Shown piece after piece: positions 21,383 through 43,603 of a stretch of DNA of 64,000 nt. Made by a program: the position numbers and the translations under genes. Source of the stretch: Bacteroidetes bacterium HGW-Bacteroidetes-8 (GTDB lineage Bacteria > Bacteroidota > Bacteroidia > Bacteroidales > UBA932). The stretch spans positions 300,938 to 364,937 of the forward strand of contig PHCZ01000006.1 in assembly GCA_002840895.1 (NCBI GenBank), written 5' to 3'. Under the pieces are notes generated by a model. The model saw only the letters and a program-made list of their open reading frames with translations. It was not told where the DNA came from and made no database searches. How positions within the stretch are numbered: the first letter of the stretch is position 1; each line of letters begins with the position of its first letter.

Positions 21383-21501
21383 CTAACAGTATTCTGTGAA
21401 ACGCCTTGCTTGTTAAGCACTTGAAAAACTCATTTTGGGAATTCTCTAAAGTAAGATTTTTATATAATAGATTTACAGTCACTTATGCAAGATGCTGTCA
21501 G
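21383..21501 (+). repeat. MITE-like 119-bp element, copy 1
   Basis: This is one of three related elements in the window. It starts CTAACAGTATTCTGTGAAAC and ends CTTATGCAAGATGCTGTCAG, so the ends are an imperfect inverted repeat (about 10 of 16 positions). The centre holds TTGAAAAACTC followed by TTTTGGGAATT, shared with the other copies. It lies in the 322-bp gap between the convergent creatininase and leuB genes. No coding sequence or target duplication is visible. The rest of the gap (21309-21382 and 21502-21598) shows nothing further. Confidence 0.65.
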
Positions 21502-21598
21502 TATGTGGTCTGCTGCGCAGTTGTGTTGTCCACTTATCGATTTTTGGTCTTTTCGCTCATTATCAGACATATCCCAAGATCCTTGACAAGGTTAGTTA

Positions 21599-22663
21599 TT
21601 AAATTCTGGCAGAGATCCTATCACCAACCTCGGTGGTGGTTTTGGCGGTGGCCTCTTCGCATAGATCTGGTGTTAACCACCCCTCTTCAATAGTTTGATA
21701 GCAGGCATTCTTAACGGCATCTGCTTCACGTTCAAGCCCGAATGCATCGCGCAGCATCATTGCGGCCGAGAGGATTGTGGCTATTGGGTTTGCAATATTT
21801 TTGCCGGCTGCCTGTGGGTATGACCCGTGGATAGGTTCAAAGAGCGGGGAGCCCAACCCGAAGGAGGCAGATGGCAATAGTCCGATTGAGCCGGTAAGCA
21901 CACTTGCTTCGTCACTGAGAATGTCACCGAACATATTTTCTGTAAGTATCACATCAAACTTAGCCGGAAAGGTGACCAGCTGCATTGCAGCATTATCTAC
22001 AAACATAAAATCCAGCTCAATATCCGGGAACTCACTCTTGTGCAAAGCTGTAACCACCTCTCTCCAGAGCCTTGAGGTCTCCAGGACATTGGCCTTATCT
22101 ACCAGAGTCACCTTTCCCCTTCTGCCAATAGCCAGCCTAAAAGCGAGTCGCGCAACCCGCTCCACCTCCTGTGCAGTATAGAGGCAGGTGTCAAAAGCTG
22201 TTAACCTGTCTATACTTCTGCCTCTTGGCTCCCCAAAATAGATTCCACCGGTAAGCTCCCGTACAACAACTAAATTGGCCCCGGCAATTCTATCCTCCTT
22301 CAATGGAGAGCGGTGAGATAGAGAGGGAATCAACTCAACAGGGCGGATATTGGCAAAAAGGCCAAGCTCCTTACGCATCTTTAAAAGACCCTGCTCCGGC
22401 CGAACTTTGGCCGTTGGGTCGTTATCATATTTCGGGTCGCCGATTGCCCCGAACAGGATGGCATCGCAGGCGGTGCATAACCTATGAGTTTCTGCAGGAT
22501 ATGGTTCTCCGCAACTCTCAATTGCAATAGCGCCAATCAATCCGTAATTAAAAGTAAATGTGTGAGAAAATTTTTGGGCGACAGCCTTCAAAACCTTAAC
22601 CGCCTGAGCAGTAATCTCAGGACCGATACCATCTCCGGGTAATACCGTAATTATTTTATTCAT
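21599..22663 (-). CDS. leuB: 3-isopropylmalate dehydrogenase
   Basis: LeuB oxidises and decarboxylates 3-isopropylmalate to 2-oxoisocaproate with NAD+, the third leucine-specific step. The 354-aa protein starts with VLPGDGIGPEI and has the LLKMRKELGLFANIRPV loop, LTGGIYFG, the catalytic Lys/Asp region DKANVLE, and the NMFGDILSDEA and PIHGSYPQAAG nucleotide-site motifs. Length and motifs are typical. It is the last gene of the - strand operon leuA-leuC-leuD-leuB, with a 62-bp gap after leuD. Confidence 0.97.
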   Translation of the reverse strand: MNKIITVLPGDGIGPEITAQAVKVLKAVAQKFSHTFTFNYGLIGAIAIESCGEPYPAETHRLCTACDAILFGAIGDPKYDNDPTAKVRPEQGLLKMRKELGLFANIRPVELIPSLSHRSPLKEDRIAGANLVVVRELTGGIYFGEPRGRSIDRLTAFDTCLYTAQEVERVARLAFRLAIGRRGKVTLVDKANVLETSRLWREVVTALHKSEFPDIELDFMFVDNAAMQLVTFPAKFDVILTENMFGDILSDEASVLTGSIGLLPSASFGLGSPLFEPIHGSYPQAAGKNIANPIATILSAAMMLRDAFGLEREADAVKNACYQTIEEGWLTPDLCEEATAKTTTEVGDRISARI

Positions 22664-22725
22664 TGAATGTTATCTCTTTATGTAATTTTAAAATTGCAAA
22701 TCGGGATGTTTGGGATATAAGCAGA

Positions 22726-23328
22726 TTAAAGTGAAGATGCTTTATATAACTCATAATCCTCTATCTCCTTAATGTTTGATAGCAGGTAGTCAATATCGTC
22801 ATAGCCATTTATCAGGCACTCCTGTTTGTAGTTGTTGATTTCGAACTTTTCGGAATCGCCACTCTCCTCAACTGAGATCTCTTTTTTCATAAGGTCAATT
22901 TTTAATGTTGTTTTATTATTTGATTTGGAATAATTTATAATTGCAGAGTAAAATCCTTCACTCACCTGAACCGGCAGCAACCCATTATTGAGAGCATTGG
23001 AGCGAAAGATATCGGCAAAAAAGGTGGAGACCACCGCTCTAAATCCGTAATCGGCAATTGCCCACGCAGCGTGTTCGCGACTGGAGCCGCATCCGAAATT
23101 CCTCCCTGCAACCAGGATTGTCCCATCTCCATTTGGGGTGTTTAAAATGAAATCCTCAATTTTCGCTCCCGAGCTGTCGTAACGCCAGTCGTAAAAGAGA
23201 TTTTCTCCGAACCCTTCTCTCGATGTGGTTTTGAGAAAGCGTGCCGGGATAATCTGGTCGGTATCAATATTATCTTTGACGATTATCACCGCCTTAGACA
23301 CAACTGTTGTAAATTTTTTGCTGTTCAT
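22726..23328 (-). CDS. leuD: 3-isopropylmalate dehydratase small subunit
   Basis: LeuD pairs with LeuC to isomerise 2- to 3-isopropylmalate. The protein has the swivel-domain motifs NIDTDQIIPARFL, GRNFGCGSSREHAAWA and NNGLLPVQV. The start at 23328 (MNSKKFTT) matches the usual LeuD N-terminus better than the upstream ATG at 23346, which would add six residues. The predicted length of 200 aa is normal. It lies between leuC and leuB in the leu operon. Confidence 0.95.
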   Translation of the reverse strand: MNSKKFTTVVSKAVIIVKDNIDTDQIIPARFLKTTSREGFGENLFYDWRYDSSGAKIEDFILNTPNGDGTILVAGRNFGCGSSREHAAWAIADYGFRAVVSTFFADIFRSNALNNGLLPVQVSEGFYSAIINYSKSNNKTTLKIDLMKKEISVEESGDSEKFEINNYKQECLINGYDDIDYLLSNIKEIEDYELYKASSL

Positions 23329-23348
23329 TGTTACTATCTGTATCAATT

Positions 23349-23414
23349 ATTACTGTTGCTTGCACTATTACTGTTGTTTGCACTAATGCTGTTGGGGAGC
23401 ACTTTTGCTGTTGG
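23349..23414. repeat. Degenerate 18-bp tandem repeats between leuC and leuD
   Basis: ATTACTGTTGCTTGCACT (23349-23366) is followed by ATTACTGTTGTTTGCACT (23367-23384), a 19-bp variant AATGCTGTTGGGGAGCACT (23385-23403) and a partial TTTGCTGTTGG. Part of the array overlaps no coding sequence. It suggests repeated slippage in this intergenic stretch. Confidence 0.75.
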
Positions 23415-23422
23415 TTTACATT

Positions 23423-23490
23423 CTTACTTTTAAGTTGGATTCTTGCTTTGGATCTCCTTACTTTTAAGTTGGATTCTTGCTTTGGATCTC
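23423..23490. repeat. Perfect 34-bp tandem duplication at the leuC 3' end
   Basis: Two identical 34-bp copies lie at 23423-23456 and 23457-23490. Each begins CTTACTTTTAAGTTGG and ends GCTTTGGATCTC. Read on the - strand, the unit encodes the last residues of LeuC (EIQSKNPT) and its TAA stop. The second copy is therefore a non-coding duplicate of the leuC terminus. The perfect identity implies a recent event. Confidence 0.9.
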
Positions 23491-24960
23491 TCTCGGGTCA
23501 GTTATGACGCCGGTAATTGCAGATGCTGCTGCAACCAGCGGCCCGGCAAGTATTGTTCTCGCTCCGGGTCCCTGCCTGCCCTCAAAGTTTCTGTTTGTGG
23601 TTGATATACAGTATTTGCCATTTGGGATCTTATCTTCATTCATCCCCAGACAGGCTGAACATCCGGGCTGACGCACCTCAAATCCCGCTTTGCGAAGTAT
23701 TTTCCCAAGACCCTCTTCCTCTATCTGCCTCTCAACTCTCTTAGAACCCGGAACCAGCCAGGCTGTAACCTCAGGGGCCTTTTTGCTCCCTTTTACAATA
23801 TTCGCAAACGCACGAAAATCCTCTATTCGCCCGTTTGTGCAACTCCCCAGAAATATGTAGTCTACAGGGAGTCCCAGCAGTTGCTCACCCCCCTTAAACC
23901 CCATATAATTAAGAGCCTTCTCTGCCATTGCCAACTCAATTGCGTTGCTTACCGCCATTGTCAACTCAACCGCTTTGCTTCCAGCCATTGCCAACTCAGC
24001 CGCGCTCTTCTCCGCCACTTGGCTTCCCGCCGCGCTGCTTCCGGCCAGTGGAACTCTGCCGGTTATTGCCATCCCCATTCCCGGGTTTGTGCCCCAGGTA
24101 ATCATCGGCTCTATCTGTGTGGCATCTATCTCTATTACAGCATCATAAATAGCATCAGGGTCACTCTTCAGTTCGCTCCACCTCTTAATGGCCCTCTCCC
24201 ACATCTCCCCCGTTGGAGAGTAATCTCTCCCCTTTAGGTAGTCGAAGCTCTTGCTGTCCGGAGCAATGAGCCCGCCTCTTGCCCCCATCTCAATGCTCAT
24301 ATTGCAGATTGTCATCCGTCCCTCCATAGTGAGACCTTTTATTGTGCTTCCTGCGAATTCAATGAAGTGGCCTGTGCCTGCAGATGTTCCCAACCGCGAA
24401 ATTATGTGCAGGATGATATCCTTTGCACAGACCCCATTTGGCAAAGCACCATCTACCTTAATGAGCATCTGCTTAGGTTTGCTTTGGAGCAGGGTCTGTG
24501 TGGCAAGAACCATCTCCACCTCGCTTGTTCCAATGCCAAAGGCGATGCTGCCAAAGGCTCCGTGTGTAGATGTGTGGCTGTCGCCGCAGACGATTGTCAT
24601 TCCGGGCTGTGTGATTCCAAGTTCCGGCCCAATGATGTGAACGACGCCATTGGATGGATCTCCCAGCGGGAAGTAGGTTATGCCGTGCTCCTTTGTGTTG
24701 GCGGCAAGTTGCTCAATGGGGATGCGCGAGGTAGACTCCTCTATAGGTTTATCCTGATTCCTGGTTGGTACATTGTGGTCGCAGGTGGCAAATGTTTGTG
24801 AGGGCCTAAAGACTTTGCGCCCTCTGTTGCGCAGTCCGGTAAAAGCCTGCGGGCTTGTCACCTCGTGGATAAAATGTCTGTCAATATAGAGAACAACCGG
24901 CCCATCCGGAATCTCTTTTACTATATGTGACTCCCATATTTTGTCAAATAGTGTTTTCAT
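23464..24960 (-). CDS. leuC: 3-isopropylmalate dehydratase large subunit with repeat insertion
   Basis: LeuC is the [4Fe-4S] aconitase-family large subunit that works with LeuD. Motifs include [33 protein letters not shown] with the first cluster cysteine and [11 protein letters not shown] with the other two. It is 498 aa long, about 30 more than usual. The extra residues are an Ala-rich insert ([29 protein letters not shown]) encoded by four 30-bp tandem units at 23924-24043, just before the [10 protein letters not shown] segment. The insert keeps the frame and lies in a surface linker, so the enzyme is probably active. It begins directly after the 24961-25080 element. Confidence 0.95.
23924..24043. 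repeat. Four 30-bp tandem repeats inside leuC
   Basis: Units start at 23924, 23954, 23984 and 24014. The first three begin GCCATTG(C/T)CAACTCA and the fourth, GCCACTTGGC, is more diverged. Each codes 10 residues on the - strand, so changes in copy number keep leuC in frame. The site is a candidate variable-number locus between strains. Confidence 0.85.
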
Positions 24961-25080
24961 CTGTTAGTGTTTTGTGTATATGTCTGTATATTAATAATTT
25001 AATATTTGTATTTTTCTCAATTGCCAAAATGCTATTTTTTAACTATTTAAAAACCAGCGTGTTTCACAGAACACTGGCAG
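24961..25080 (-). repeat. MITE-like 120-bp element, copy 2
   Basis: Read on the - strand it starts CTGCCAGTGTTCTGTGAAAC at 25080 and ends CACAAAACACTAACAG at 24961. The ends form a terminal inverted repeat matching at 13 of 16 positions. The centre has TTAAAAAATAGC and TTTTGGCAATT, as in the other copies. It fills the whole leuA-leuC gap, supplies the leuA stop codon and ends at the base before the leuC ATG. Confidence 0.7.
25049..25077 (-). terminator. Hairpin with U tract at the leuA stop codon
   Basis: On the - strand CCAGTGTT, a short loop and AACACGCTGG pair with a 2-nt bulge and are followed by TTTTT (25053-25049). It lies inside the 24961-25080 element and could partly terminate between leuA and leuC, or be a by-product of the element ends. 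Confidence 0.4.
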
Positions 25081-26563
25081 TTGAAACAGCATTCACCAGC
25101 GCCTCAACCGAAGCGGTTACAATATCGGTGTTGGCAGAGAAGCCGTAGTAGATGTTCCCTTTGTTCTCTATTTGAATGTGCACCTTTCCAACATCGTCGC
25201 TGCCGCGGGTAATGGCCTGTACAAGAAACTCTTCCAGGTTGATTTTACGGTGGATCAGAGATTTAACCGCCGAAAACGAGGCATCTATAGGGCCGTTACC
25301 CGAACTGGTTGCACAGCACACCTCCCCGTCAATAACCAGCTTAACTGTTGCCATTGGAACGGAGTTTTTACCGCAAACCACCTGCAGATATTTAAGGCGG
25401 ATTTTCTGATTCTGTTTGGCGCGGGTAACACCCACAATAACAAGCAGATCTTCGTCGTTAATGTCCTTTTTACAGTCGGCCAGCTTCAGGAATTTGTCGT
25501 AGGCCTCGTCCAGCTCCTCGTTTGTGAGCTCCACCCCAAGCCTTTTGTAGTGGTGGTTTAGAGCGGCTCTTCCGCTGCGGGCAGTAAGGGCAATTGTAGA
25601 TTCGTTCACCCCAACATCTGCAGGGTCTATGATCTCATAGCTCTCGCGGTTTTTAAGTACGCCGTCCTGATGAATCCCCGAAGAGTGGGCAAAAGCGTTC
25701 CTCCCCACAATCGCCTTGTTGGGCTGGACCGGCATCCTCATCAGGGTTGATACAAGACGAGAGGTTCGGGCAATCATCCGGGTCTCAATATCTGTATAAA
25801 CGGGAATATCATTGCGGCATTTTATTGCCATAACCACCTCCTCCATTGCAGTGTTTCCGGCACGCTCACCAATTCCGTTAATGGTAACCTCAACCTGCCG
25901 CGCACCATTCATCACCCCGGCGAGGGTGTTTGCTGTTGCCATTCCAAGGTCGTTGTGGCAGTGGGTAGATATCACCGCTTTGTGAATATTGGATACATTG
26001 TCGTGCAGATATTTTATCTTCTCGCCATACTCATAAGGCATACAGTACCCTGTTGTGTCGGGGATGTTTACCACCGTTGCCCCTGCAGCAATTACCGCCT
26101 CGATTACCCTGGCAAGATATTCATTATCTGTCCTCCCTGCATCTTCGGCGTAGAACTCCACATCGTCGGTAAAGCGGCGGGCATACTTCACGCACTTAAC
26201 CGCCCGTTCAAGGATATCCTCTCTGTTGGAGCGGAATTTGTGCAAGATATGCATATCCGAAGTCCCTATCCCTGTGTGAATTCGCTTTCTTTTTGCAAAG
26301 TGCAGAGCATCTGCAGCAACATCAATATCCTTCTCAACTGCCCGTGTAAGGGCGCAGATGGTAGAGTCGGTAATTACCTTAGAGATCTCCACAATGGAGT
26401 TGAAATCTCCCGGGCTGGAGATGGGAAAACCACACTCGATTATATCTACCTTCATTGCCTCGAGAGCTTTGGCCAGCTCTATCTTTTCAATTGTGTTAAG
26501 CTGACATCCCGGGACCTGCTCTCCGTCGCGAAGAGTTGTGTCAAATACATAAAGTTTTTCCAT
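25064..26563 (-). CDS. leuA: 2-isopropylmalate synthase
   Basis: LeuA condenses acetyl-CoA with 2-oxoisovalerate, the committed step of leucine synthesis. The 499-aa protein starts with the HMGL-like motif [13 protein letters not shown], has the metal-binding [14 protein letters not shown] and [14 protein letters not shown] motifs, and the HSSGIHQDG segment. A C-terminal LeuA regulatory domain follows (from about residue 370, with [12 protein letters not shown]), so leucine feedback inhibition is expected. It is the first structural gene of the operon, behind an attenuator. Its last codons and stop lie within the 120-bp element. Confidence 0.97.
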
Positions 26564-26575
26564 AGTTCGTAAAAT

Positions 26576-26604
26576 TAAAAAAGGCCACCCTTTTTGGGCG
26601 GCCT
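26576..26604 (-). terminator. Attenuator terminator of the leu operon
   Basis: On the - strand AGGCCGCCC (26604-26596), loop AAAAA and GGGTGGCCT (26590-26582) form a 9-bp stem with one mismatch, followed by a run of T. It lies between the leader peptide stop and the leuA ATG. GGGCGG inside the leader peptide gene (26656-26651) is complementary to CCGCCC of the left arm (26601-26596), so an alternative antiterminator hairpin can form. Confidence 0.85.
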
Positions 26605-26631
26605 GTCTATTTTGGTTTAAAAATTCTCCTA

Positions 26632-26712
26632 TTAATGCACAACAGTTGCTCCGCCCGATTTATAAAAACCCAGCAGCAGCAGTGATTGAATAATTGATAT
26701 TTGTCTATTCAT
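26632..26712 (-). CDS. leuL: Leu operon leader peptide with four consecutive Leu codons
   Basis: A 26-codon frame starts [10 protein letters not shown], continues with four successive CTG codons (26682-26671), then [12 protein letters not shown] and TAA. It lies 68 bp upstream of leuA, directly before a terminator. This is the classic layout of transcription attenuation: when charged Leu-tRNA is scarce the ribosome stalls on the Leu codons, the antiterminator forms and the operon is read. Longer upstream frames would run antisense into the sigma-factor gene and are not used. Confidence 0.85.
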
Positions 26713-26838
26713 ACAGGTTGCGAAGTTATCAAAAAAATGAATCGAACAAATTTTAATTGAAAAATATTTGTAAATTGCCCAACTTAAACAGGTACTATTG
26801 CCCAGTTTGAACTGCAACTGGGTGCCGAAAAACTTCGT

Positions 26839-27423
26839 ATGAAAACAAAGAGAGTAAAGGTGGAAAACTCTTCTGCATCTGCTTTTGAGCAGATGTATGT
26901 TGCTAATTACCACAAGATAAGATCTTTTTGTAATCACTATCTAAAGGATGATAATCTCTCCAAGAATGTAGCTCAGGATGTCTTTGTCTCGGTTTGGAAT
27001 AACAGAGAGAGTCTCAGTTTTTCGGATGAGTTGCTTCCATATCTCTTTGTTCTGGCAAAAAATATGTGCCTGAATATTCTTAAGAGGGAGAAGGTAAAAC
27101 AGAACTATTCAGAATACGGTAGGAGCCAAAACCGCGATGCTCTAAACTACGCATCTTTGAGAGACTCCTCTATTGGCCTGCTATATGGGAACGAGGTAGA
27201 GAAGCTATTGAATGATGCAATGCAAAAGATGCCAGAGAGTGTAAGATCTACATTTTATTTGAGCCGCTTTAAGCGCCTAAAATATGATGATATCGCCATA
27301 AGCCAAAAGATATCGGTAAAAACGGTAGAATACAGAATAATGTATGCCCTGAGAATCTTAAGGGTAATATTAAAAGACTATTTACCAATCTTATTAGGGT
27401 ATTTGTCCCTGAGATTGTTTTAA
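26839..27423 (+). CDS. ECF RNA polymerase sigma factor
   Basis: This 194-aa protein is a Bacteroidetes-type extracytoplasmic-function sigma factor. Region 2 is FEQMYVANYHKIRSFCNHYL through QDVFVSVWNNRESL (about residues 15-60). Region 4 is MPESVRSTFYLSRFKRLKYD plus the helix-turn-helix ISQKISVKTVEYRIMYALRI (about 133-175). It lies 17 bp before a FecR anti-sigma gene and upstream of a SusC/SusD pair. It should activate that cluster when the outer-membrane receptor signals through FecR. It is divergent from the leu operon. Confidence 0.93.
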   Translation: MKTKRVKVENSSASAFEQMYVANYHKIRSFCNHYLKDDNLSKNVAQDVFVSVWNNRESLSFSDELLPYLFVLAKNMCLNILKREKVKQNYSEYGRSQNRDALNYASLRDSSIGLLYGNEVEKLLNDAMQKMPESVRSTFYLSRFKRLKYDDIAISQKISVKTVEYRIMYALRILRVILKDYLPILLGYLSLRLF

Positions 27424-27440
27424 CATACAGAGAGATTTTT

Positions 27441-28475
27441 ATGAAAAAAGAACTGCTATTAAAGTACATTAAAGGAGAGGCCACAAATAAGGAGGAGATC
27501 GAAATATACGATTGGATCGGTAAGAACCCCGATAACAAGAGATATTTTGTTATTCTTAACAATTTGTGGATATCTCAAAACATATCTCAAAACAAAGCAG
27601 ATGAGCGGGAGGTTGAGGAGATTAGATTGCTTACAACAAAGAGAGGCAATCTCTTTAAGAGATATGGAAAATACATCTCCTATGCAGCTGTGGCAGTGGT
27701 TGTGTTGTCTCTATCCCTTAACCTTTTTCTGCTGGATAGTAACAACAAATTAGTCAGAAAATTCAGTAACACTCCTGTAAGGCTCTCCGAGCTTTCTCCG
27801 GATTATAAACACGAAATATATACCGAAAAAGGGGTTAAAGCAAAAATTACCCTGCCGGATGGATCCGCCGTATGGCTAAATTCAGATTCAAGAATAACAT
27901 ATCCCGACAGGTTTGAGTCGGATATCAGGGAGGTTGAGTTCTCCGGCGAGGCCTACTTTGATGTTGTGAGCGACTCTTTAAGGCCACTCATAATCAAAAC
28001 TAATAAAGATTTTAAAATTGAAGTATTGGGTACTCAGTTTAATGTTAGAAGTTACGATAATGATAATGAGGCTCAGACTACACTCTATACCGGTTCTCTC
28101 AATATTGTTTCTAAAGGTGTGAGCAGCGGCCTTAAAGGGGCAAAAGATATTGTTACAACACTGAAACCATCTGAATCCTGTATTATAAGAGAAAAACAGA
28201 ACCCGATACATATAAAACCGGCAGATGCTAACAAGCAGTATGCCTGGAAAGAGGGTAAAATAATATTTGATTCGACTCCACTCTCAGAGGTTATTAAAAT
28301 GCTCGAGAGGTGGCACGGGACAGAGTTTGTAGTTAAAGACCCATCTATTTACAGATTCGATATTACTGCAAAGTTTCGTTCTGAATCTATAGTGCAAATT
28401 ATGGAGATGATAAAGTATTGTTCTTTAGTGGACTATACTATTGACAGCAATAAAGTGGTACTCTATCGGAGATAA
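27441..28475 (+). CDS. FecR-family anti-sigma factor
   Basis: The 344-aa protein has an N-terminal cytoplasmic segment (LLKYIKGEATNKEEIEIYDW) that should hold the ECF sigma factor, one membrane helix at about residues 75-95 (YISYAAVAVVVLSLSLNLFLL), a periplasmic FecR domain (TEKGVKAKITLPDGSAVWLN, EVEFSGEAYFDV) and a C-terminal DUF4974-like domain ending NKVVLYR. It sits in the inner membrane and should receive the signal from the STN domain of the adjoining SusC protein. Confidence 0.93.
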   Translation: MKKELLLKYIKGEATNKEEIEIYDWIGKNPDNKRYFVILNNLWISQNISQNKADEREVEEIRLLTTKRGNLFKRYGKYISYAAVAVVVLSLSLNLFLLDSNNKLVRKFSNTPVRLSELSPDYKHEIYTEKGVKAKITLPDGSAVWLNSDSRITYPDRFESDIREVEFSGEAYFDVVSDSLRPLIIKTNKDFKIEVLGTQFNVRSYDNDNEAQTTLYTGSLNIVSKGVSSGLKGAKDIVTTLKPSESCIIREKQNPIHIKPADANKQYAWKEGKIIFDSTPLSEVIKMLERWHGTEFVVKDPSIYRFDITAKFRSESIVQIMEMIKYCSLVDYTIDSNKVVLYRR

Positions 28476-28499
28476 TTCTAATTTTTTTGTTAGGGTAAT

Positions 28500-28507
28500 T
28501 AGCTTTG
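28500..28507 (+). promoter_or_regulatory. Candidate -7 box upstream of susC
   Basis: TAGCTTTG exactly matches TAnnTTTG and lies 36 bp before the susC start. No TTG box is found at the normal 19-nt spacing, so it is either a weak housekeeping promoter or coincidental next to an ECF-dependent one. Confidence 0.35.
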
Positions 28508-28543
28508 ATGTTGTTCTACAGACAAACCCAAAACAATTAAATT

Positions 28544-31500: not shown

Positions 31501-32101
31501 AGCAGGAAGTCCAAACTGGCAACCGGTTGTTCAAGGTAAAGGAGAAGATCTCTATGACTTTACAGGATGGACACCGGGAGACGGACGCGACTATATGCTA
31601 AATATGGGGACAAAAGTAGCTCCGTTTGCAATGGGATTTTCAAGTACTTTCAAGGTGTACGATTTTGATATTTCATTTATCGTTACCGGGAAATTTGGAC
31701 ACGTATTTAATGGATTTTCGTTTAATTACCCAAGTATGTCCGGTGGAAGTGCTCTCCCTAACAAACTTTATAACGAAATTTTAGATTCGGACCCTATGGT
31801 TAGAGTTCCTATTCCATTTGGTAAAGCAGAACCAAGGTACTATTTCTGGGACAGATTCTATCCATATCTTGACTATCTAGTTCAGAATGCAAACCATATA
31901 AGAATGCAGGAGCTAAACATCACCTATAATATGCCAAAATTCTTAACAAGCAAATTAGGGATAAGCTCGGCTAAATTATATGCTCAAGCGAACAATCTGT
32001 TTACTCTCTCGAACAACAAGTATAATGAAGATCCGGAATTCCCTCTGGGATCTCTTAGGCCACAAGCCTCCTTTACCTTTGGATTAAATTTAGGATTCTA
32101 A
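28544..32101 (+). CDS. SusC/RagA-family TonB-linked outer membrane transporter with STN domain
   Basis: The 1185-aa protein has a signal peptide ending near SAQ, an STN signalling domain (INFKDTPLKNILTEVNRQTG, residues ~33-85), a carboxypeptidase-regulatory-like domain (IKGKVLDDTKLPLPGVSI), a TonB plug (ATGSFNIIKAEQLEKP, IRGQTSLLAAAQPLIVVDG, IEVESITILKD-like) and a long C-terminal beta barrel ending NLGF. SusC proteins import oligosaccharides or peptides with a SusD lid. The STN domain and the upstream ECF/FecR pair show that it also transduces an uptake signal. The substrate is unknown. Confidence 0.95.
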   Translation: MNSKTVPKALLRLLPFLAIFILFCNDISAQKININFKDTPLKNILTEVNRQTGYDFVYSNALTAINDKVTISYSANGEPVEKLFDALFIERGISYKINNKQVTLAPKEIVPGSRLNRVASSGTVSQEVFQIKGKVLDDTKLPLPGVSIQNLTSKKGSFSDNNGDYTLEAKNGDRIRFSSIGMITKEVVISGSVTVYNIEMSPDNILLQDVVVTGYQTLSKERATGSFNIIKAEQLEKPATNLGQRIIGTSAGVQTKTDVNGNVTFEIRGQTSLLAAAQPLIVVDGFAIQGDLRTINPNDVESITILKDAAATSIWGARSANGVIVITSKSGLGSKRSGVKVDFSSFLKYAPKTDINYQNPFATSTEIIDYEQRGFSTTFFGGPWVPLPNSNTSLTGTYSAAVQAMNEARMGYITATELNATLDRLRKIDNRQDIKDHMLQNPFTQQYNLNISGSNERMTNVLSLMYEGSNQSYTGDNAKKYIANYRANVKVFRWLDFFFSGSFGMTDERNNGAIYTSSPYHALFNEDGSYASVPFGVYMPNMLRHVPMSSFPYSDWSYNPIREVDGRDFRTKQLRARAQAGLTFKVIDGLTIDSKIQYEMINNDTKNIYNEDTYTVRSTVNFASTWDKPTGKVTTNLPKGGFLDQSRNNTTAYNWRNQINYNKLFAEKHQISVIAGAEVSDRVYQTFGNPRTYGYDNEKLTVGTFPNGVGGSGVYALKNWTGGAQTFAYTNSYSYSTDRYFSMYGNASYTFDSKYTLSGSARTDASNLITDDPKYRYAPFWSVGASWAITKEEFMKSISWLDRLLIRATYGYNGNVDKSTSFMPLITVTGTQNIYIQDYTASIGSYGNPTLRWEKTGTINLGFDFDMFKGKLYGKLDVYNKKGKDLIVAMSIPAVNGTASQKLNMAEMTNRGIELELGTLMKLKDNDIVWVGNLNFSYNKNKIDNLFKATYAAYDLYGGGTAAYVQGYDANTLWSFKYAGVVDKGVAGSPNWQPVVQGKGEDLYDFTGWTPGDGRDYMLNMGTKVAPFAMGFSSTFKVYDFDISFIVTGKFGHVFNGFSFNYPSMSGGSALPNKLYNEILDSDPMVRVPIPFGKAEPRYYFWDRFYPYLDYLVQNANHIRMQELNITYNMPKFLTSKLGISSAKLYAQANNLFTLSNNKYNEDPEFPLGSLRPQASFTFGLNLGF

Positions 32102-32113
32102 AAATTATAGGTT

Positions 32114-33640: not shown

Positions 33641-33650
33641 GGTAAATTTT

Positions 33651-33681
33651 AAAAGGGGCGTTCAAATCGCCCCTTTTTTTT
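33651..33681 (+). terminator. Intrinsic terminator after susD
   Basis: AAAAGGGGCG, a 7-nt loop and CGCCCCTTTT make a perfect 10-bp stem continued by a T tract to 33681. It separates the SusC/SusD genes from the thioredoxin-like gene that starts 14 bp later. That gene therefore needs read-through or its own promoter. Confidence 0.92.
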
Positions 33682-33694
33682 AATAAAACATATT

Positions 33695-36313: not shown

Positions 36314-36318
36314 TATTC

Positions 36319-36365
36319 CCGATAAGAGGCGAGGCTCTTGAGACAGCTGTAAAGCAGCTTATCGG
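36319..36365. repeat. Inverted repeat between convergent genes
   Basis: CCGATAAG (36319-36326) and CTTATCGG (36358-36365) form an 8-bp stem around 31 nt that contains GAGGCGAGGCTC and CAGCTG. It overlaps the stop of the M64 gene. It may end transcription from both sides, but it lacks T tracts. Confidence 0.4.
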
Positions 36366-39073
36366 ATTATCAAAATAGGTGGTGGCAACGCCATCTTAGC
36401 ATCAAAGGCCGGTTCGCCGGCTTTTGTTGCTACATTAAGCTCCATAACATCTCTTGAGCGGAACTCGTCAAAAGAGTAGGGGAGTCCGGCAAGCTGTTTT
36501 ATTCTTTTTACAATGAGTTCTCTTCCGGGCGCATTTATGTATTTAATATTGTTAATCATCAGGGATCTCTGCTCCGGCCTGTAGACACCTTGTCCATAGT
36601 AGTAGGCTCCCTCCCAGGCACCTACATAGGCGTAGCCTGTAACGCCAACGAAGTGTTTCCAGATAATCTCAGAGAGGTTGTTGGTAAGATCTACATTTTT
36701 GAAATGGTTAAAAGATTGCCATAGACGGAGAGTGCTCTTTTCACTATCTGTTATGTACCCCACGTTGTTTACATATTCATCTGCAAGCTTCCCAAACCCG
36801 TGCCCTGCAGCCTCGTGTTGCACAAGACCCCGAAAATCGTATGGGTAGCTTAAATCTGAGACTGGTGCAATAGCAATTGCAGCACCGTCGGAGTAGAGCC
36901 GGCAGGTTCCTCCGTAACGGTTGCTGTTGGCAACCACTGTTATAAGGGTATTGCTAAGGCTTCCAATAGGTGCTTTTTGGGCATATGTAAAACAGGTTGT
37001 GTTATTTACAGTCATTGAGGTAACCGGATAGGTTCCGGTGTATTTTGTCTGGAATTTAGTATCTACATTGGTTGTAAGGTCGCTTATTCCGCTCTGGGCA
37101 GATACCGCATACACCACATAGACGCTAAAATGGTTGCGGTAGGTCTTATATGGCTCTATTGCAAAGAAGTGCTCTACGGCGGCATTGATTGTGGTTAAAT
37201 ATTCGTTGCTCTCAATCTCTGCCCTGTTAAAACCATCTCCTAAAAATACCAGGTCTACCCCGCTTCCCATTGTGGCAATCTGCAAAAGAGCGTAATCGCC
37301 ATCGTTAATCGCATATCCGGGATCGGGTGGATCTTCGGGATCTTCACCCGGATCTTCGGGATCCTCCTCTCCTCCAAGACTTGGATCTGTCCCCTCTTCG
37401 TAGATTTTGTCAAAAAAGGTATAACCCCACCCGGAGGTTGTTTTATAAGCGTTAAGAGAGCCTACAGGCACAACAAGGTGTGCAGCAGCATCAATTCCGG
37501 TAAAAACTCCGTTAAGAGCGAATGGAGTTACAACTCTGGACACAACCATTGCAAGCTGCGAACACCCTGCAAAAGCAGAGTTACCTACACTGCTTAAAGA
37601 TGTAGGAAACTCCACCGCTGTAAGCGAAGTGCAGTTAAGAAATGCTTCTGCTCCTATAGATGCAAGATTTGAGGGGAACTTTACCTCTTTTATCTTTTTG
37701 CCGGGTGCAGATGTGCTTTTGAAAGCATTATCCGGAATTTTATTGTTCTCAACTGTTGCCTCCTCCAAATTGAGATACTCCAGATTCAACAGATTATCTC
37801 TGAGAAATACAAAATCTGCAGCAGAGATCTCACCCTCAACCTTGAGCCGGGTGACAGATGCCCTATCAGCGGCGGGTATGATATCTGCAAGAGCCCTGCC
37901 ATTCGGGTTATAAACATAATACCCGTCATACCAGGACTGCCTTATTTTCAAGGTATCTTTGAAAAGATTATTTACTGAGGTAAATATGACACTCCCTGTT
38001 CTTATTTCTGTCGTGGTGTTTGCCGAGACTGCAAATGAGTGGCTGTTGGTTACCAGCCCCTTTGTCTTTATTTCGGTTATCCAGTTTACCCCTGAAGATA
38101 GTGTAACATTGTACTGGATATTGGACTGAAGCGTATAGTTGATTGTTCCCCCTCCCTTTTGGACAACAAAACTCTTTACCGGAGAGAAGATAATGGCATC
38201 TCTCTGCGCCTGAACAATTGTAAGGGTATCGCTCAGTGAAGAGTTGTTGTCTTTAAAAATAATCTGAGCACTTCTGCTGTCGTAGGTTTCGTTTGCCCCT
38301 ACAATAAATTGGTGCAGATATGTGGTGAGGGCTTTTGTATTGACTTTAGTTACCCAGCTTACTGTCGGGGGTAAAAGTATGGTGTAACTTATGTTTGAGC
38401 GCAACTCGACAGATATTGAAGAGGCAGAACTTGGCACGTTGAAGATCTTTTGAGTAAGGATAAGTGCATCCTTCTGAGCCTGATTTATTGTAAGGGTATC
38501 TGAGAGGGTCGAGTTCTTATCTTTGAAAATAATACGGGCAACTCTTTTGTCGTAAGTGTCGTTTGCAGCTACAGCAAATTCGTGCAGAGATGTGTTGAGC
38601 GTTTTTGATTTAACTTTTGTTACCCAATTTGCATCTGCAGGGATAATAACATCGTAGTTTATATTGCTTTTTAGCTCTGCAGATACACTTCCTGTAGTGC
38701 TGGGGAGATTAAAGACTTTTTGAGTTAATATGAGAGCGTCGGTCTGTGCCTGAGTTATTGCAACTGTAGATGAGAGAGTTGCTGCAGTTATGATTATCTG
38801 TGTACTCCTTTGCGAATATGTTGTATTTGGGTCTGCTGCCACCCTTATGGTGCCATTCCCGCTACCTGTAGCCGGTATACCAACACACCATCCGTCACCC
38901 CCCATCACCCTCCAGGTTGTGTTAGATGTAATATTTATAATGTAATCCCCTTCTTTTTCTGAAAAACTGATTGACTCCACCGAGACCGAAAGTGTAGGCT
39001 CAGGCTTGCATCCTGTATTGAGTACAACTACAGAAAACAGAAGCCATACTGTTTGTTTTGCCCACCGGAACAT
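36359..39073 (-). CDS. Surface lipoprotein with BACON domains, leucine-rich repeats and M64 metallopeptidase
   Basis: The 904-aa protein has a lipoprotein signal (lipobox LNTGC, C22). Four BACON-like beta domains follow at about 28-385. Three of them are clear copies starting DALILTQK(V/I)FN or similar and ending TLTI-QAQ. A BspA-like leucine-rich segment comes next (about 400-560, GAEAFLNCTSLTAVEFP), then an acidic Pro/Asp/Glu linker, then an IgA-peptidase-type M64 domain with the metal motif HEAAGHGFGKLADEY (H753, E754, H758). It probably digests host or dietary glycoproteins at the cell surface. The metal motif has three residues between HE and H, one more than the classic HExxH. Confidence 0.88.
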   Translation of the reverse strand: MFRWAKQTVWLLFSVVVLNTGCKPEPTLSVSVESISFSEKEGDYIINITSNTTWRVMGGDGWCVGIPATGSGNGTIRVAADPNTTYSQRSTQIIITAATLSSTVAITQAQTDALILTQKVFNLPSTTGSVSAELKSNINYDVIIPADANWVTKVKSKTLNTSLHEFAVAANDTYDKRVARIIFKDKNSTLSDTLTINQAQKDALILTQKIFNVPSSASSISVELRSNISYTILLPPTVSWVTKVNTKALTTYLHQFIVGANETYDSRSAQIIFKDNNSSLSDTLTIVQAQRDAIIFSPVKSFVVQKGGGTINYTLQSNIQYNVTLSSGVNWITEIKTKGLVTNSHSFAVSANTTTEIRTGSVIFTSVNNLFKDTLKIRQSWYDGYYVYNPNGRALADIIPAADRASVTRLKVEGEISAADFVFLRDNLLNLEYLNLEEATVENNKIPDNAFKSTSAPGKKIKEVKFPSNLASIGAEAFLNCTSLTAVEFPTSLSSVGNSAFAGCSQLAMVVSRVVTPFALNGVFTGIDAAAHLVVPVGSLNAYKTTSGWGYTFFDKIYEEGTDPSLGGEEDPEDPGEDPEDPPDPGYAINDGDYALLQIATMGSGVDLVFLGDGFNRAEIESNEYLTTINAAVEHFFAIEPYKTYRNHFSVYVVYAVSAQSGISDLTTNVDTKFQTKYTGTYPVTSMTVNNTTCFTYAQKAPIGSLSNTLITVVANSNRYGGTCRLYSDGAAIAIAPVSDLSYPYDFRGLVQHEAAGHGFGKLADEYVNNVGYITDSEKSTLRLWQSFNHFKNVDLTNNLSEIIWKHFVGVTGYAYVGAWEGAYYYGQGVYRPEQRSLMINNIKYINAPGRELIVKRIKQLAGLPYSFDEFRSRDVMELNVATKAGEPAFDAKMALPPPILIIR

Positions 39074-39104
39074 TTCTTACACCTGTTTAATTTAGTGAAA
39101 TTAC

Positions 39105-39947
39105 CTACTTTCTTTTATAAACTCTTACATAATCTACATCGTGAAATTGAGGAAAAACGGTTGTGGAATCGGGATTTCCGGGCCAGGAGCCTCCAATGGC
39201 AGTGTTGATTATTAGAAAGTGGTCGTTATGAGGAACACCCTCCTTTGCAGAGTGTATCAATACTCCGTCCAGATACCATCTGATAGCATCTGTCTCCCAT
39301 TCAAGAACATATAGATGAAAATCATCACCATAGTTGACTTTGCCGTTATAGGTTCCGGATGATACTCTTCTCTCCCCCTTGAAGGATTGGTAGTGAAAAG
39401 TTGCGTAGACAATATTGGATTCGTGTCCCAAAAACTCCATAATATCAATTTCTGTATACCAAGGTCTTAATTCGGGAATATACCTCTCCTGACCTCTATC
39501 TACAGCATCTTTCATCAATACCTCCATAGCCCAGTCGCGATTTTGCGGGTATAGCCAGTATGCCGGCCATAATCCTTTACCTGTGGGTAGCTTGCCTCGA
39601 ATTTCAACTCTTCCATATGTAAAAGCTAACTTATCTTTAGTGTCCAGCCTGCCGCTTGTGTAGTGTTTGTTGCCAAACTCTCTTATTTGGCTACGAATCC
39701 TTAATGAGCCGTTTTCCACATATACCTCATCCGGGACATAGTACTGAAGTTCATCGTGTTTGCTAGTCTCTCTGGTTAAGATATTCCATTTGGATTTGTC
39801 AAGAGATTTGCCGTTGAATTCATCTTTCCAGATAAGTTTCCAGCCTGAATTTCCGGGATCTCTTTGTGGTTGCTCTTGTGCAGATGCTATTCCAAAACTT
39901 AAGCACTGTAAAGAGATGAAAAGCAGCAAAAATTTAATGTTTTTCAT
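39105..39947 (-). CDS. GH16-family glycoside hydrolase (laminarinase-like)
   Basis: The 280-aa protein has a signal peptide (FLLLFISLQCLSFGIASAQ) and a GH16 beta-jelly-roll. It has WKLIWKDEFNG at the start, the catalytic EIDIMEF (nucleophile, Asp and acid/base in ExDxxE) and WYLDGVLIH and DYVRVYKR at the end. It most resembles beta-1,3-glucan endohydrolases. The lack of the extra residue in the catalytic motif (not ExDxExE) argues against agarases. It is periplasmic or exported and lies next to the peptidase gene, not in a polysaccharide utilisation locus. Confidence 0.92.
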   Translation of the reverse strand: MKNIKFLLLFISLQCLSFGIASAQEQPQRDPGNSGWKLIWKDEFNGKSLDKSKWNILTRETSKHDELQYYVPDEVYVENGSLRIRSQIREFGNKHYTSGRLDTKDKLAFTYGRVEIRGKLPTGKGLWPAYWLYPQNRDWAMEVLMKDAVDRGQERYIPELRPWYTEIDIMEFLGHESNIVYATFHYQSFKGERRVSSGTYNGKVNYGDDFHLYVLEWETDAIRWYLDGVLIHSAKEGVPHNDHFLIINTAIGGSWPGNPDSTTVFPQFHDVDYVRVYKRK

Positions 39948-39959
39948 TATGGGGAATTA

Positions 39960-40499
39960 TTAAAATTCAATTTTATTCTCGACGGTTTTACCCCAGAGCC
40001 CTCTGTTTTTGACTCTGGCCTCCTGCTGTCTCTTCAAAAAGAGTTCGGAGTACTTCACATTGGGAGGAAAGGTCATAACCATTGCATAACCACTCGCTAC
40101 CAGATACTCGTTAATAAAGGTTCCATCCTCCATATAGGCATAAGCCAGAATTCTCATATACTGGTCGTACTTGTTTACATCATACTCCAGTCTCACTCTC
40201 TTATTGAGGATATACTCGGTCATAAACTCCTTCGCCTCCTTGCCGTAGTAGCCTATCTCCTTCCTCCCTGTCTTTCTTGACTCAGGTGCATCTACACCAA
40301 TTAGCCTTACTCTGGCACCCTTCTTTGAGCCGTCATCTATTACAAATGTATCCCCATCAACAACTTTGGTTACAATATAGTATTCGTGGCTGGTTTTATC
40401 TGCCTCTTTTCCCCCTTTCACAGGGAAACAGGAGGTTGCGGACACCATTACAAGTGCTGTAAAAGTAAGTGAGAAGAGCACCTTAAATAATCTGTTCAT
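39960..40499 (-). CDS. Thermonuclease-like (SNase) lipoprotein
   Basis: The 179-aa protein has a lipoprotein signal (SATSC, C24) and a staphylococcal-nuclease domain. It contains KVVDGDTFVIDDG, the catalytic RVRLIGVDAPESRK, YGKEAKEFM, a second arginine in MRILAYAY, and GYAMVMTFPPN. It should cut DNA or RNA in the periplasm or at the surface for nutrient recovery. It lies just upstream of the GH16 gene on the same strand, with a 12-bp gap. Confidence 0.92.
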   Translation of the reverse strand: MNRLFKVLFSLTFTALVMVSATSCFPVKGGKEADKTSHEYYIVTKVVDGDTFVIDDGSKKGARVRLIGVDAPESRKTGRKEIGYYGKEAKEFMTEYILNKRVRLEYDVNKYDQYMRILAYAYMEDGTFINEYLVASGYAMVMTFPPNVKYSELFLKRQQEARVKNRGLWGKTVENKIEF

Positions 40500-40555
40500 A
40501 ATCTTGAAGATTCAGCGTTATTATGTGGATTACTAAGTAAAGGTAGTAAGTTCTT

Positions 40556-41485
40556 TTAAAACCTCCACGCAACTACTCTGGAGATTTTATTGCCCCTGCC
40601 TGTGGGTATTGTCCTAACATCGTTAGCTCCTGCTATTTTTAAAGCGGAGTAGATACCTTTGAGGCTCTCCTTTTTTGAGATGAGAGAGGTGAACCAGTGG
40701 CACTGTTGTGCAAAATCTCTACTTTGAGCAACCATCCCCTTAACGAAATGCTCCTCTCCTCCGGGGCACCATAGCTCGTTGCTGCGACCCCCGAAGTTGA
40801 GTCGTTCCTGTTTAATTCGGGTTTTACTAAGATTACTAAGCTTTTTATGTGCCACTTGGGCGGCCTGCTCTTTTGATGAGTGGAACGGAGGGTTACATAT
40901 CGTTGCAGCAATCTTCTCGCCTCTTTTCAATATCCCGTTAAAGTAACTCTCTCTATCTCTCTGGAGACGGATCTCAATTTTTCCGGTTAATACAGGGTTG
41001 TTTCTGACAATAGCAGCAGCAGACTCAACAGCCACAGGGTCAATATCTGTACCTATAAACGACCAGCCCCAGTTTACACACCCTATTATCGGGTAGATGC
41101 AGTTTGCCCCCACACCGATATCCAGAATTTTAACATCACTCCCAACGGGTACAGCTCCGTTATTACCCTCTGCAAGCAAATCTGCAATTGTGGCTATATA
41201 GTCTGCCCGGGATGGAATAGGGGGGCAAAGATAGTCAGGGGGAATCTCCCAGTAATTCAATCCATAGTGGTGTTTAAGCAGAGCTTTGTTGAGGATTATT
41301 ACTGCAGAAGGGTCAAAAAAATCTATAGTAAGGTTGTTGTATTCATTGGTAAATACAAATCTGCTCAACTCAGGAAAACTTACTATGAGCTCATCAAAAT
41401 CATAATTATTGATCTTTTGCACGTCTAAAAAACAAATTGGGTGTGTAGATTCAAAACGGGTGAGTAAAGAAAAATCTTGCCCCAT
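40556..41485 (-). CDS. rlmF: 23S rRNA (adenine(1618)-N(6))-methyltransferase
   Basis: RlmF methylates A1618 of 23S rRNA. Motifs are ALLKHHYGLNYWEIPPDYLCPPIPSRADYI, the SAM-binding ILDIGVGANCIYP, FIGTDIDPVAV and the catalytic CNPPFHSS. The N-terminal LHPRNxH-like segment of the family is degenerate (THPICFLDV, then NNYDFDEL). The start is uncertain. The ATG at 41485 overlaps the upstream kinase gene by 35 bp, a further ATG at 41530 would overlap by 80 bp, and a GTG at 41422 would avoid overlap. Confidence 0.9.
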   Translation of the reverse strand: MGQDFSLLTRFESTHPICFLDVQKINNYDFDELIVSFPELSRFVFTNEYNNLTIDFFDPSAVIILNKALLKHHYGLNYWEIPPDYLCPPIPSRADYIATIADLLAEGNNGAVPVGSDVKILDIGVGANCIYPIIGCVNWGWSFIGTDIDPVAVESAAAIVRNNPVLTGKIEIRLQRDRESYFNGILKRGEKIAATICNPPFHSSKEQAAQVAHKKLSNLSKTRIKQERLNFGGRSNELWCPGGEEHFVKGMVAQSRDFAQQCHWFTSLISKKESLKGIYSALKIAGANDVRTIPTGRGNKISRVVAWRF

Positions 41486-43433
41486 CTGAATAGTCTGAGT
41501 CAATCCAGATTTTTCCTCCAAGACGGGCAATAATCTGTTTTGAGATGGCTAGACCAAGACCGGCCCCCTGTTTGAAATTGTTTAGTTTGCCGAATCTTTC
41601 AAATAGAAGTTTATGCTGCTCTCTTGGGATACCGGTACCTGTATCTGTTACCGAAAACAGCAGGTAGCCTTTATCTTTCTTTACCACCTCGTACTTCAAC
41701 ACTATGGAGCCTCTATCTGTGAATTTATTTGCATTTGTGAGCAGGTTTAACAAAACCTGTGAGAGTCTGTGAGAGTCTGTGCGAATAATTATCTCTTTTG
41801 AACCCGGCTCAAACCGGTACTCTACGTCATTTTTACGGAGATGGGAGATTGTCGCAAGCACCTGTTCGCAAATTGCATTGAGGTCTGTCTCTTTAAAGAC
41901 GAAGTTAAGCTTACCTGTCTCAAGCCCGGAGAAGTCAAGAATATCTGTAATGAGGGTGAGCAGAAGCTTTGAGTTCTGGGTAATAACACTGCTCATATCT
42001 TTTCTCTCTTGCCCGGAAAACTCCTCCTCTGTGAGCAGGTTAGAAAATCCCACAATAGCGTTGAGCGGAGTCCTTATCTCGTGGCTCATATTAGCAAGGA
42101 AGGCAGATTTTAACCGGTCGCTCTCCTCTGCTCTCTCTTTTGCCTCCTGCAGCAGTTTACTATTCTCTTCCAGCCTTTTCCTGAGTCTTTTATTACGACC
42201 ATACAGGATAGAGAAGGTAATAATCAGAATTATAAGGATGAAGGCAACACCGGAGATTCCGTAGATATATCTCTTGTACTTCTCAATTCTGGGGTCCGAT
42301 GTGTTAACTATGTTACTTTCCGGAGGTAGGCGATAATCTTTGATTGAAAGATTGTCCAGCTTCTTCCTGTCAAACTGATATACCCCTCCGGACGCGACAA
42401 ATGTCACCGAGTCACGCTCTCCGTTATGAAACGCAATAATTTGCTTTACAATTGTGAGGGCATCTGTTCTGTAAATAGGGATAAACCCTCCGATTGCTAC
42501 AGAGCCTATTCCGGTTCCGGACATTGAGAAGACAGGTATATGGGGGTTTCCCGAGATAAGGTCTTCCAGGGAGTTTCCCAAATAGTACTGCCCATCTTTG
42601 TTTACCCTCCAGGTTGCAATCAACAAAGCGCTTTTTTGTGGTAGGTCTCGAATTATCTCCTTCATATGAGGGAGATAGTGCTCTCTGCTATCTAAAAAAA
42701 TATAGTTTAGAGGGGGAAGTTTTGGGATAGATCTTTTGAACAGCGCTTTGAGAGAAATTCCTCCGTAGGTGTTATCAGTTATAAATACAACATTCTCTGT
42801 TTCAGGAAAAAGAGTCTGGATTAGCTCAATATTTTTATGAGCATTATAGACATTTACAACTCCACCTGCAGTAGCCTTGGCTCTAATTTTCCTGGACATA
42901 TTTATCCAACCGGGCTCCCAGTATGGATTTATTGGCTCTTGTGGAAGGTCTATACCGTTGGAGCTGATAAAAGCTCCCAGAATGGGGATATCTTTAGGTA
43001 GAGACTCCTGAGATGAGATCGCAGACCAAGCCTCCTGCCCGATAGCAATAATTGCCGCTACATTTTTTCTCTCATATTTGGCCAGCAACCGGGATACTCG
43101 CTCTTTCCACAAATGGGCCTCTTCATTAAAATTCTTTACTCCAAGATCCTCTATTAAAATTACAAAGTTGTTCTTGTACAGCTTCTTGACCTGTCTCTCA
43201 AAATCGGTTATGAAATCCATTGTACGCTTTGTATCCGGATTAAATGAAGATATCATTAAGAAGATATCTGCATTCAATGAGCTCTCGCTGTCGGTATCTG
43301 AAGAGTATTTAATACAGTGATCTACACTATCCTCCTGGGCCTGTAAAACTTTACCGGGCAGCAGGATAAAAATGGCAATCACTGTCGTGCACCGGATTAA
43401 ATTAGCAAATAAGGAGTTAATTGAGAAAAGCAT
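41451..43433 (-). CDS. Membrane sensor histidine kinase with periplasmic substrate-binding-like sensor
   Basis: The 660-aa protein has a signal peptide (TTVIAIFILLPGKVLQAQ) and a ~350-residue periplasmic domain resembling ABC sugar/peptide substrate-binding folds (NVAAIIAIGQEAWSAI, NVVFITDNTYGGIS). One membrane helix follows near 391-412 (GISGVAFILIILIITFSILYG). A kinase core comes next with phospho-acceptor H451 in NMSHEIRTPLNAIVGFSNLL, the N box VLLNLLTNANKFTDRG, and G boxes DTGTGIP and GAGLGLAISKQII. No receiver domain or response regulator is adjacent, so its partner is unknown. The ligand cannot be predicted. Confidence 0.9.
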   Translation of the reverse strand: MLFSINSLFANLIRCTTVIAIFILLPGKVLQAQEDSVDHCIKYSSDTDSESSLNADIFLMISSFNPDTKRTMDFITDFERQVKKLYKNNFVILIEDLGVKNFNEEAHLWKERVSRLLAKYERKNVAAIIAIGQEAWSAISSQESLPKDIPILGAFISSNGIDLPQEPINPYWEPGWINMSRKIRAKATAGGVVNVYNAHKNIELIQTLFPETENVVFITDNTYGGISLKALFKRSIPKLPPLNYIFLDSREHYLPHMKEIIRDLPQKSALLIATWRVNKDGQYYLGNSLEDLISGNPHIPVFSMSGTGIGSVAIGGFIPIYRTDALTIVKQIIAFHNGERDSVTFVASGGVYQFDRKKLDNLSIKDYRLPPESNIVNTSDPRIEKYKRYIYGISGVAFILIILIITFSILYGRNKRLRKRLEENSKLLQEAKERAEESDRLKSAFLANMSHEIRTPLNAIVGFSNLLTEEEFSGQERKDMSSVITQNSKLLLTLITDILDFSGLETGKLNFVFKETDLNAICEQVLATISHLRKNDVEYRFEPGSKEIIIRTDSHRLSQVLLNLLTNANKFTDRGSIVLKYEVVKKDKGYLLFSVTDTGTGIPREQHKLLFERFGKLNNFKQGAGLGLAISKQIIARLGGKIWIDSDYSDGARFFFTHPF

Positions 43434-43483
43434 TTATCTTATGAGATTTCACTTGTTGCAGTAAAGTTAAATAAAATTTTGAA

Positions 43484-43603
43484 CTGACAGTATTTTGCGA
43501 AACAATCTAATTATGAGATGTTTGAAAAAATCGCTTTGGAAATTATAGCAAATCTGGAATTTTATATATCAGTTAGACAGCTGTTTACACAAAACAGTGT
43601 CAG
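43484..43603 (+). repeat. MITE-like 120-bp element, copy 3
   Basis: It starts CTGACAGTATTTTGCGAAAC and ends TTACACAAAACAGTGTCAG. The terminal 16 bp match as an inverted repeat at 13 positions. The central TTGAAAAAATCG and TTTGGAAATT block is shared with the copies at 21383 and 24961. It fills most of the 166-bp gap between the flippase and sensor-kinase genes, and its right end supplies the stop codon of the flippase gene. Confidence 0.7.

Follow-up and report, generated by a model that had tools for sequence, protein, structure and literature searches.

The window analysed here, 64,000 nucleotides of contig PHCZ01000006.1 (positions 300,938 to 364,937) of Bacteroidetes bacterium HGW-Bacteroidetes-8, carries three diverged repeats of about 120 bp. 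These repeats belong to a larger scattered family of hairpin-forming elements of uncultured Bacteroidales. By analogy with described systems, they are quite probably non-autonomous hairpin repeats of the kind known as REPINs, i.e. doublets of repetitive extragenic palindromic (REP) sequences, or as palindromic terminal inverted repeats (TIRs), moved by a Y1/HUH enzyme that resembles the REP-associated tyrosine transposases (RAYTs). Below, G000 is the host genome, other G numbers are the genomes compared with it, and C and L numbers are contigs and loci.

Copies in the window and in the host genome

A preliminary description of the window had reported three copies, and all of them are present where it placed them, with lengths of 119, 120 and 120 bp. 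It had overlooked a fourth, of a second type. The four elements of the window are:

21383–21501, plus strand: A-type element of 119 bp, between convergent genes (E 3.7e-22; a row of the model, R1, described below)
24961–25080, minus strand: A-type element of 120 bp, between leuA and leuC (E 5.8e-20; a row of the model)
43484–43603, plus strand: A-type element of 120 bp (E 1.3e-25; a row of the model)
14462–14581, minus strand (arbitrary; it scores on both strands): B-type element of 120 bp (E 2.8e-9; not a model row)

Used as a DNA query, the copy at 43484 finds 13 more matches of at least 111 bp in the host genome (E 6e-10 or better). Thus the family is not a product of chance. R1, a sequence-only model built from 17 copies, recovers those 17 and four new A-type copies, 21 in all, with E values no higher than 6.4e-16. 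Profiles run over fetched stretches bring the A type to 23 full copies and one partial copy of 49 bp (the copy at C15:54838 is included in alignment A4). R1 also matches 118-bp stretches on both strands, which represent a related type, B; most of these reach 120 bp once widened by one base on each side. The ends of B elements resemble RCTTTGSCAGTGTTTGATGTAA, and their inner palindrome is built around CAGTTTTCCAAATTTGGAAAACTG. The host has 15 full B copies (14 and one half in the fetched stretches, and one more full copy at C16:87262), together with an interrupted one:

C11:43705–44034: interrupted B copy

Copies are unevenly spread: 17 elements lie on the 374-kb contig C8, and three, one of them interrupted, were found on the 821-kb contig C11.

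Each element is a palindrome along its whole length

The elements, of about 120 bp each, are interrupted palindromes over their entire length and not at their ends alone. In 33 of the 36 copies scanned the best dyad centre is the exact midpoint of the element as cut; the other three, whose cut was off by one base, fall exactly on it once placed in the 120-column alignment, so that all 36 are centred. In this alignment the outer stem joins columns 1–19 with 102–120 and the inner stem columns 39–58 with 63–82. The ends had been described as inverted repeats of about 16 bp, which is a fair account: the outer arms pair at 16/19, 14/19 and 15/19 positions in the copies at 21383, 24961 and 43484, G-T pairs counted. 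The shared central block of the same description is present too, but it is really one half of the second, inner inverted repeat.

Over 37 copies, 80.6% of the cells of both stems are paired, against 72.3% after shuffling (0/500 shuffles as high); the outer stem alone reaches 88.5%, and pairing falls to 36–46% when the partner arm is slid by 1–3 columns. The test was repeated within types on non-redundant 120-bp copies from several genomes (43 of 59 A, 38 of 42 B). Pairing again exceeds that of the shuffles for the outer stem of A (0/2000 as high) and the inner stem of B (4/2000).

A cloverleaf, with side hairpins in the 19-nt stretches between the stems, was also considered. The pairing excess there is weak (at most about 0.1 in B and 0.05 in A), and mirrored pairing of these stretches is lower than in most shuffles, so the idea was dropped.

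A RAYT-like gene lies between two A copies

A search of the host genome with the Pfam model Y1_Tnp gave two genes. One of them answers the call of the preliminary description for a transposase with matching ends, as it encodes a RAYT-like Y1/HUH protein between two inverted A copies:

C4:38323–38442: A copy upstream of the gene (seen by profile only, not by the palindrome detector)
C4:38644–39456: RAYT-like gene, 270 aa
C4:39450–39569: A copy downstream, overlapping the gene end by 7 bp

Neither flanking copy went into the building of R1, and the model matches both (E 3.3e-9 and 4.7e-8). The arrangement recurs in G008, where a protein 85% identical to the host enzyme has A copies on both sides and again a 7-bp overlap. 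In G016 the protein encoded beside a homologous left flank is 55% identical and has a B copy on its upstream side.

The host protein scores 27.9 bits with Y1_Tnp (PF01797), above the cut-off of 23. All 18 proteins of alignment A5 match the NCBIfam model REP_Tyr_transpos (NF047646), and the HUH and Y---NP motifs (N73, H74, H76; Y131, I132, N135, P136) are invariant in 18/18. A C-terminal block is also conserved in A5. The TIRYT enzymes (subclass 2.1) are marked by a C-terminal helix-turn-helix extension; in A5, Pfam helix-turn-helix models give weak matches (best 0.019, 3/18 proteins).

By analogy with known systems, the elements would spread as follows. One strand of the 120 bp would fold into a long hairpin, in which an outer stem (about 19 bp) and an inner stem (about 20 bp) are separated on each side by some 19 nt that stay for the most part unpaired. 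The folded arms would be recognised by a RAYT-like Y1/HUH transposase, which would cut single-stranded DNA at the ends of the element and paste a copy at a new site, without target duplication. The likely enzyme in the host is the 270-aa product of C4:38644–39456. We infer its binding, cutting and copying of the elements by analogy, from sequences that come largely from metagenome assemblies; a single enzyme lineage would have served both A and B.

Palindromes and transposases diverge together in the genus

An interrupted palindrome of 94–148 bp lies within 400 bp of 26 of the 41 RAYT-like open reading frames (ORFs) of the genus, and on both sides in 14 of the 41; by eye, the two sides then carry the same arms. 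In this set identical or contained ORFs were merged and near-identical ones kept, some of them near-identical between species, and three flanks are cut short by contig or locus ends. It stands without the Y1_Tnp matches of L244 and L245, which the RAYT profile did not pick up, and without at least five hits (G007:C29:9514, G011:C1:789821 and 843164, G013:C18, G004:C24). Control values are lower: 5/395 for shuffled flanks, 28/236 on any side and 1/236 on both sides for ordinary genes of C8 in the host, and 19/133 and 0/133 respectively for those of G016.

Arm similarity tracks transposase identity (Mantel r 0.79, n=26, 0/5000 permutations), also once enzymes more than 70% identical are removed (r 0.60, n=21, 0/5000). 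The branches of RAYT-like enzymes include those with the A, F, CTCCGCGCC and CCTCAGRGG palindrome types. The F arm, that of G010 and G006, has 20 matches in G010 and 7 in G006, and none in G000, G011 or G016. A further palindrome type (ATCTCAGAGCTGTAGTGCC..) was seen at L219:1300–1405 of G016, upstream of another RAYT-like gene. Judged from these sequences, the genus holds an unusually clear set of co-diverging transposase/palindrome pairs.

Distribution and turnover among relatives

Among the matches listed, at least 23 of the 60 genomes searched have some match at E 0.01; within the genus, E falls below 1e-6 in four of 25 genomes (G000, G008, G016 and G009, the last of B type). Where other congeners match more weakly, the stretch is often a palindrome of different sequence. 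In a collection of species genomes, which may leave out the host itself, the exact B pattern, covering only copies that start with GCCAG, found 18 stretches, all in two metagenome-assembled genomes (HGW-Bacteroidetes-5 PHDC01 and JAUYTH01). The A pattern, the only one used for virus carriage, found 0 stretches in a collection of viral contigs.

The junction between leuA and leuC could be read at 13 of 15 leuA loci (all but G005 and G019). It holds an A element in G000, and B and A elements in G008 and G016; it is element-free in ten congeners (G001, G002, G004, G006, G009, G010, G014, G015, G017 and G023). Where both orthologues have an element, its length is the same in 36 of 38 pairs (119–121 bp). 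Identities were counted on these 36 same-length pairs. Several orthologous copies are 97–100% identical between species, with flanks at 77–97%, and in eight pairs the element is 57–74% identical while the flanks are at 72–96%. The element at C8:251110 differs from its counterparts by about a quarter whereas its flanks differ by 4–9%, and the junction is unchanged; this may reflect conversion or replacement. There and at C8:158708, the nearest relative of the host copy is another host copy.

Element-free orthologous sites thus exist. Between G008 C154 and G016 C2 the ends of the element are gone, but differences of a few bases on both sides prevent the junction from being placed exactly. The other element-free orthologues shown mostly resemble deletion remnants or rearranged sites.

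Placement next to genes

Elements occupy the spaces between genes. On contig C8, 91% of which is covered by the ORFs of a simple caller, the overlap with ORFs is at most 19% of the element length in 17/17 elements, and 6/17 overlap an ORF end. Gaps between convergent genes hold 8/17 of them, against 39 convergent pairs among 264 pairs of neighbouring ORFs. In the window, the neighbours of the copy at 21383 are:

ends at 21276: creatininase-like ORF, flanking the element (score under the cut-off of that model)
ends at 21599: leuB, the convergent neighbour

The copy at 24961 contributes the final codons and the stop of leuA (ORF 25064–26563) and stops immediately before the ATG of leuC (24960). 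The minus-strand gene next to the copy at 43484 (ORF 43600–44598) has its stop inside the last 4 bp of the element. The B copy at 14462–14581, whose inner palindrome is nearly perfect, directly follows a CRISPR array.

This array is large (window 8370–14280; 30-nt repeat CCTTTAATCGAACCTTTTAGGAATTGAAAC), with a Cas3 gene upstream at 1741–3882; by eye, it has a truncated repeat near 10866 and one spacer present twice (about 10243 and 10632). The leuC gene contains a 30-bp tandem repeat of 2.7 copies (23924–24004), and NCBIfam aligns leuC as two stretches.

A GC-rich repeat made of two small hairpins (CTGC..GCAG, then CCGC..GCGG) occurs on C8 at 158855, 161392, 211752 and 273559, and all four of these strict matches are at most 200 bp from an A or B element. 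A half unit was seen by eye in the window near 21510. This repeat is possibly another REP family.

An insertion sequence (IS)-like sequence with ends GTCTTGTACTG.., itself an unassembled repeat, also lies close to the elements. It is found as follows:

Host contig ends C7, C21, C16 (both ends), C15 and C13; L092–L104: IS-like repeat

Of the six exact places where its left end occurs, five have an A or B element 4–5 bp away; its seven right ends have no A or B element within the 190 bp shown. Four of the seven right ends begin with AAGTT, as would be seen if 5 bp at the end of the B element itself had been duplicated. ISPpu9 is a described case of an insertion sequence located within REPs (PMC8450116).

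Alternative explanations

The preliminary description was of an old, dispersed miniature mobile element with inverted ends, and this much stands. It also called the copies similar to miniature inverted-repeat transposable elements (MITEs), which in the usual DDE sense is not supported. A classic MITE would be a deleted DDE insertion sequence with matching TIRs, moved by cut-and-paste with target duplication, and our copies are indeed short, dispersed and non-coding with inverted ends. But the search for target duplications gave no convincing one at the host copies. The scan ran over 704 combinations of length and offset, with 60 shuffles each, on 23 A and 14 B host copies lying more than 30 bp from a sequence end; the best A signal was z 4.3 (9 bp, offsets 3 and 6) and the best B signal z 1.9, and no duplication adjoins the ends. 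In addition, the dyad spans the whole element (119–121 bp), and the sole transposase gene that was seen flanked by two such copies encodes a Y1 enzyme. These are most likely not usual DDE-type MITEs, and a classic MITE is a very improbable explanation. No DDE element with the same ends was noted among the end matches that were followed, which were not all of them.

Another alternative is host use; roles of this kind (terminator, RNA processing or nucleoid site) have been proposed for ERIC and BIME repeats. A structural or regulatory repeat of this sort, spread long ago and kept under selection, would agree with the intergenic position, the enrichment between convergent genes, the length kept in 36/38 orthologous pairs, and the copies that stay 97–100% identical across species amid flanks at 77–97%. 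It agrees poorly with a patchy presence (four of the 25 genus genomes below E 1e-6, among the matches listed), with element-free orthologous sites and with the lack of a consistent RNA strand signal. Indeed, G-T versus A-C mismatches of the A type stand at 19:37 in the outer stem and at 83:58, the opposite way, in the inner stem, and an RNA function was set aside for this want of consistent bias. We regard host use as an unlikely origin; later use of the elements by the host would be compatible with these observations. Integron attC sites, for which no search was made, were set aside as well because the copies are scattered across many contigs.

Ectopic gene conversion, rather than transposition, could now be what chiefly spreads and homogenises the copies. 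The eight same-length pairs with elements far more divergent than their flanks point that way, above all two of these sites, C8:251110 and C8:158708, where the closest relative of the host copy lies within the same genome. However, conversion requires pre-existing copies, so it leaves first arrival at new sites, such as leuA-leuC, unexplained, and it is improbable as the main process. A different version of the RAYT reading would dispense with the tetranucleotide guide: the enzyme would read the folded arms alone, and elements would be replaced in place. Under it, at least 15 visibly different palindrome types would each belong to their own branch of a RAYT group in which the motif that normally reads the guide seems to be missing. 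A member of the family could be swapped in place for another member or for the other type, with the junction unmoved. This version is conceivable but rather doubtful.

Several points weigh against movement of the elements by a RAYT-like enzyme. On the side of structure, part of the pairing excess of the 37 copies is accounted for by the A/B split. Within types, the outer stem of B is marginal (92/2000 shuffles) and the inner stem of A is no better paired than the shuffles (463/2000); the earlier view that the copies are maintained by structure is thus borne out for the A outer and B inner stems but not for the A inner stem. As for the enzyme, the host protein reaches 52 bits with NF047646, below the cut-off of 80, and a sequence search of the PDB gave no relevant relative of it. 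The inversion of the flanking copies is clear only in G000, since the two strands score nearly equally in G008. The detector found no palindrome at 15 of the 41 RAYT-like ORFs, one of which, that of G008, does have A copies by profile. The Mantel test corrects shared ancestry for near-duplicates only, and A, B and F were shown to be dispersed, while some but not all of the other types were seen at two or more loci. In G000, which carries B copies, the only enzymes are that of the A lineage and a more distant one; G009 has B copies too, yet its sole RAYT-like match, in a fragmented assembly, is on another branch. Finally, the element-free orthologues shown include no empty site that can be matched to the base with a closely related filled one.

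Comparison with known systems

The preliminary description knew of no named family with these ends, and none was found here either: at gathering scores Rfam has no hit anywhere in the window, and none of the titles and abstract openings listed in searches of open-licence papers names these elements. ERIC and similar palindromic repeats are of like size and are also dispersed intergenic palindromes; we know of no Y1 gene between ERIC copies.

The kind of element is nevertheless already described in print, as far as portions of three papers let us judge (PMC3116915, PMC3733652, PMC6006769). REPINs are REP doublets that form hairpins, with a RAYT beside a cluster of its own family (PMC3116915). 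The present elements resemble them in having two inverted conserved ends around a less conserved spacer of set length, the whole forming one hairpin, in compensatory changes, extragenic position and a RAYT adjoining its own family, and in the presence of several families per genome. They differ by an additional inner stem and by the absence of GT[AG]G at their ends: the stretch inspected for it at the hairpin foot runs from 6 bases of left flank through 12 bases of the element, and 0/68 A and 0/43 B rows carry it there. They are also fewer, with 38 full A and B copies compared with the 101 GI elements in the Figure 4 alignment of PMC3116915.

TIRtrons, with their TIRYT genes, have the same plan as our case (PMC3733652): inverted repeats that are not related to GTAG REPs stand on either side of a RAYT-like gene. 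Some of these TIR repeats are self-complementary ("double palindromic"), some are dispersed families and some overlap the end of the gene. Their GGGGWSAS motif, however, is matched at no more than 5/8 positions in the A and B arms tested, and at 7/8 in the arm of the congener pair L260. The available portions of PMC3733652 name no Bacteroidales set with co-divergence of arms and enzymes.

Subclass 2.6 of TnpAREP, from Bacteroidetes, is flanked by "atypical secondary structures" that have copies elsewhere in the genome (PMC6006769). The phylum, the NH.H form of the HUH motif and atypical structures without GT[AG]G are common to both. The 18-protein alignment, compared by eye with Table 1 of that paper, departs from the motifs given there: LF..PF-like residues stand where W-Q is listed, and a YI[LIV]xNP-type motif where YIH[QN]NP is. 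The proteins are also longer (251–308 aa against a median of 179). As the elements lack GT[AG]G and the proteins do not match the motifs of subclass 2.6, we file the elements as REPIN/TIR-type and leave the subclass open.

The mechanisms by which RAYTs disseminate repeats have been called poorly understood (PMC8266576). The elements account for repeats at the ends of genes of uncultured Bacteroidales that would be hard to explain otherwise. With its many pairs of enzyme and palindrome that diverge together, this single genus offers a natural series from which to derive the rule of recognition, also for systems without the GTAG tag.

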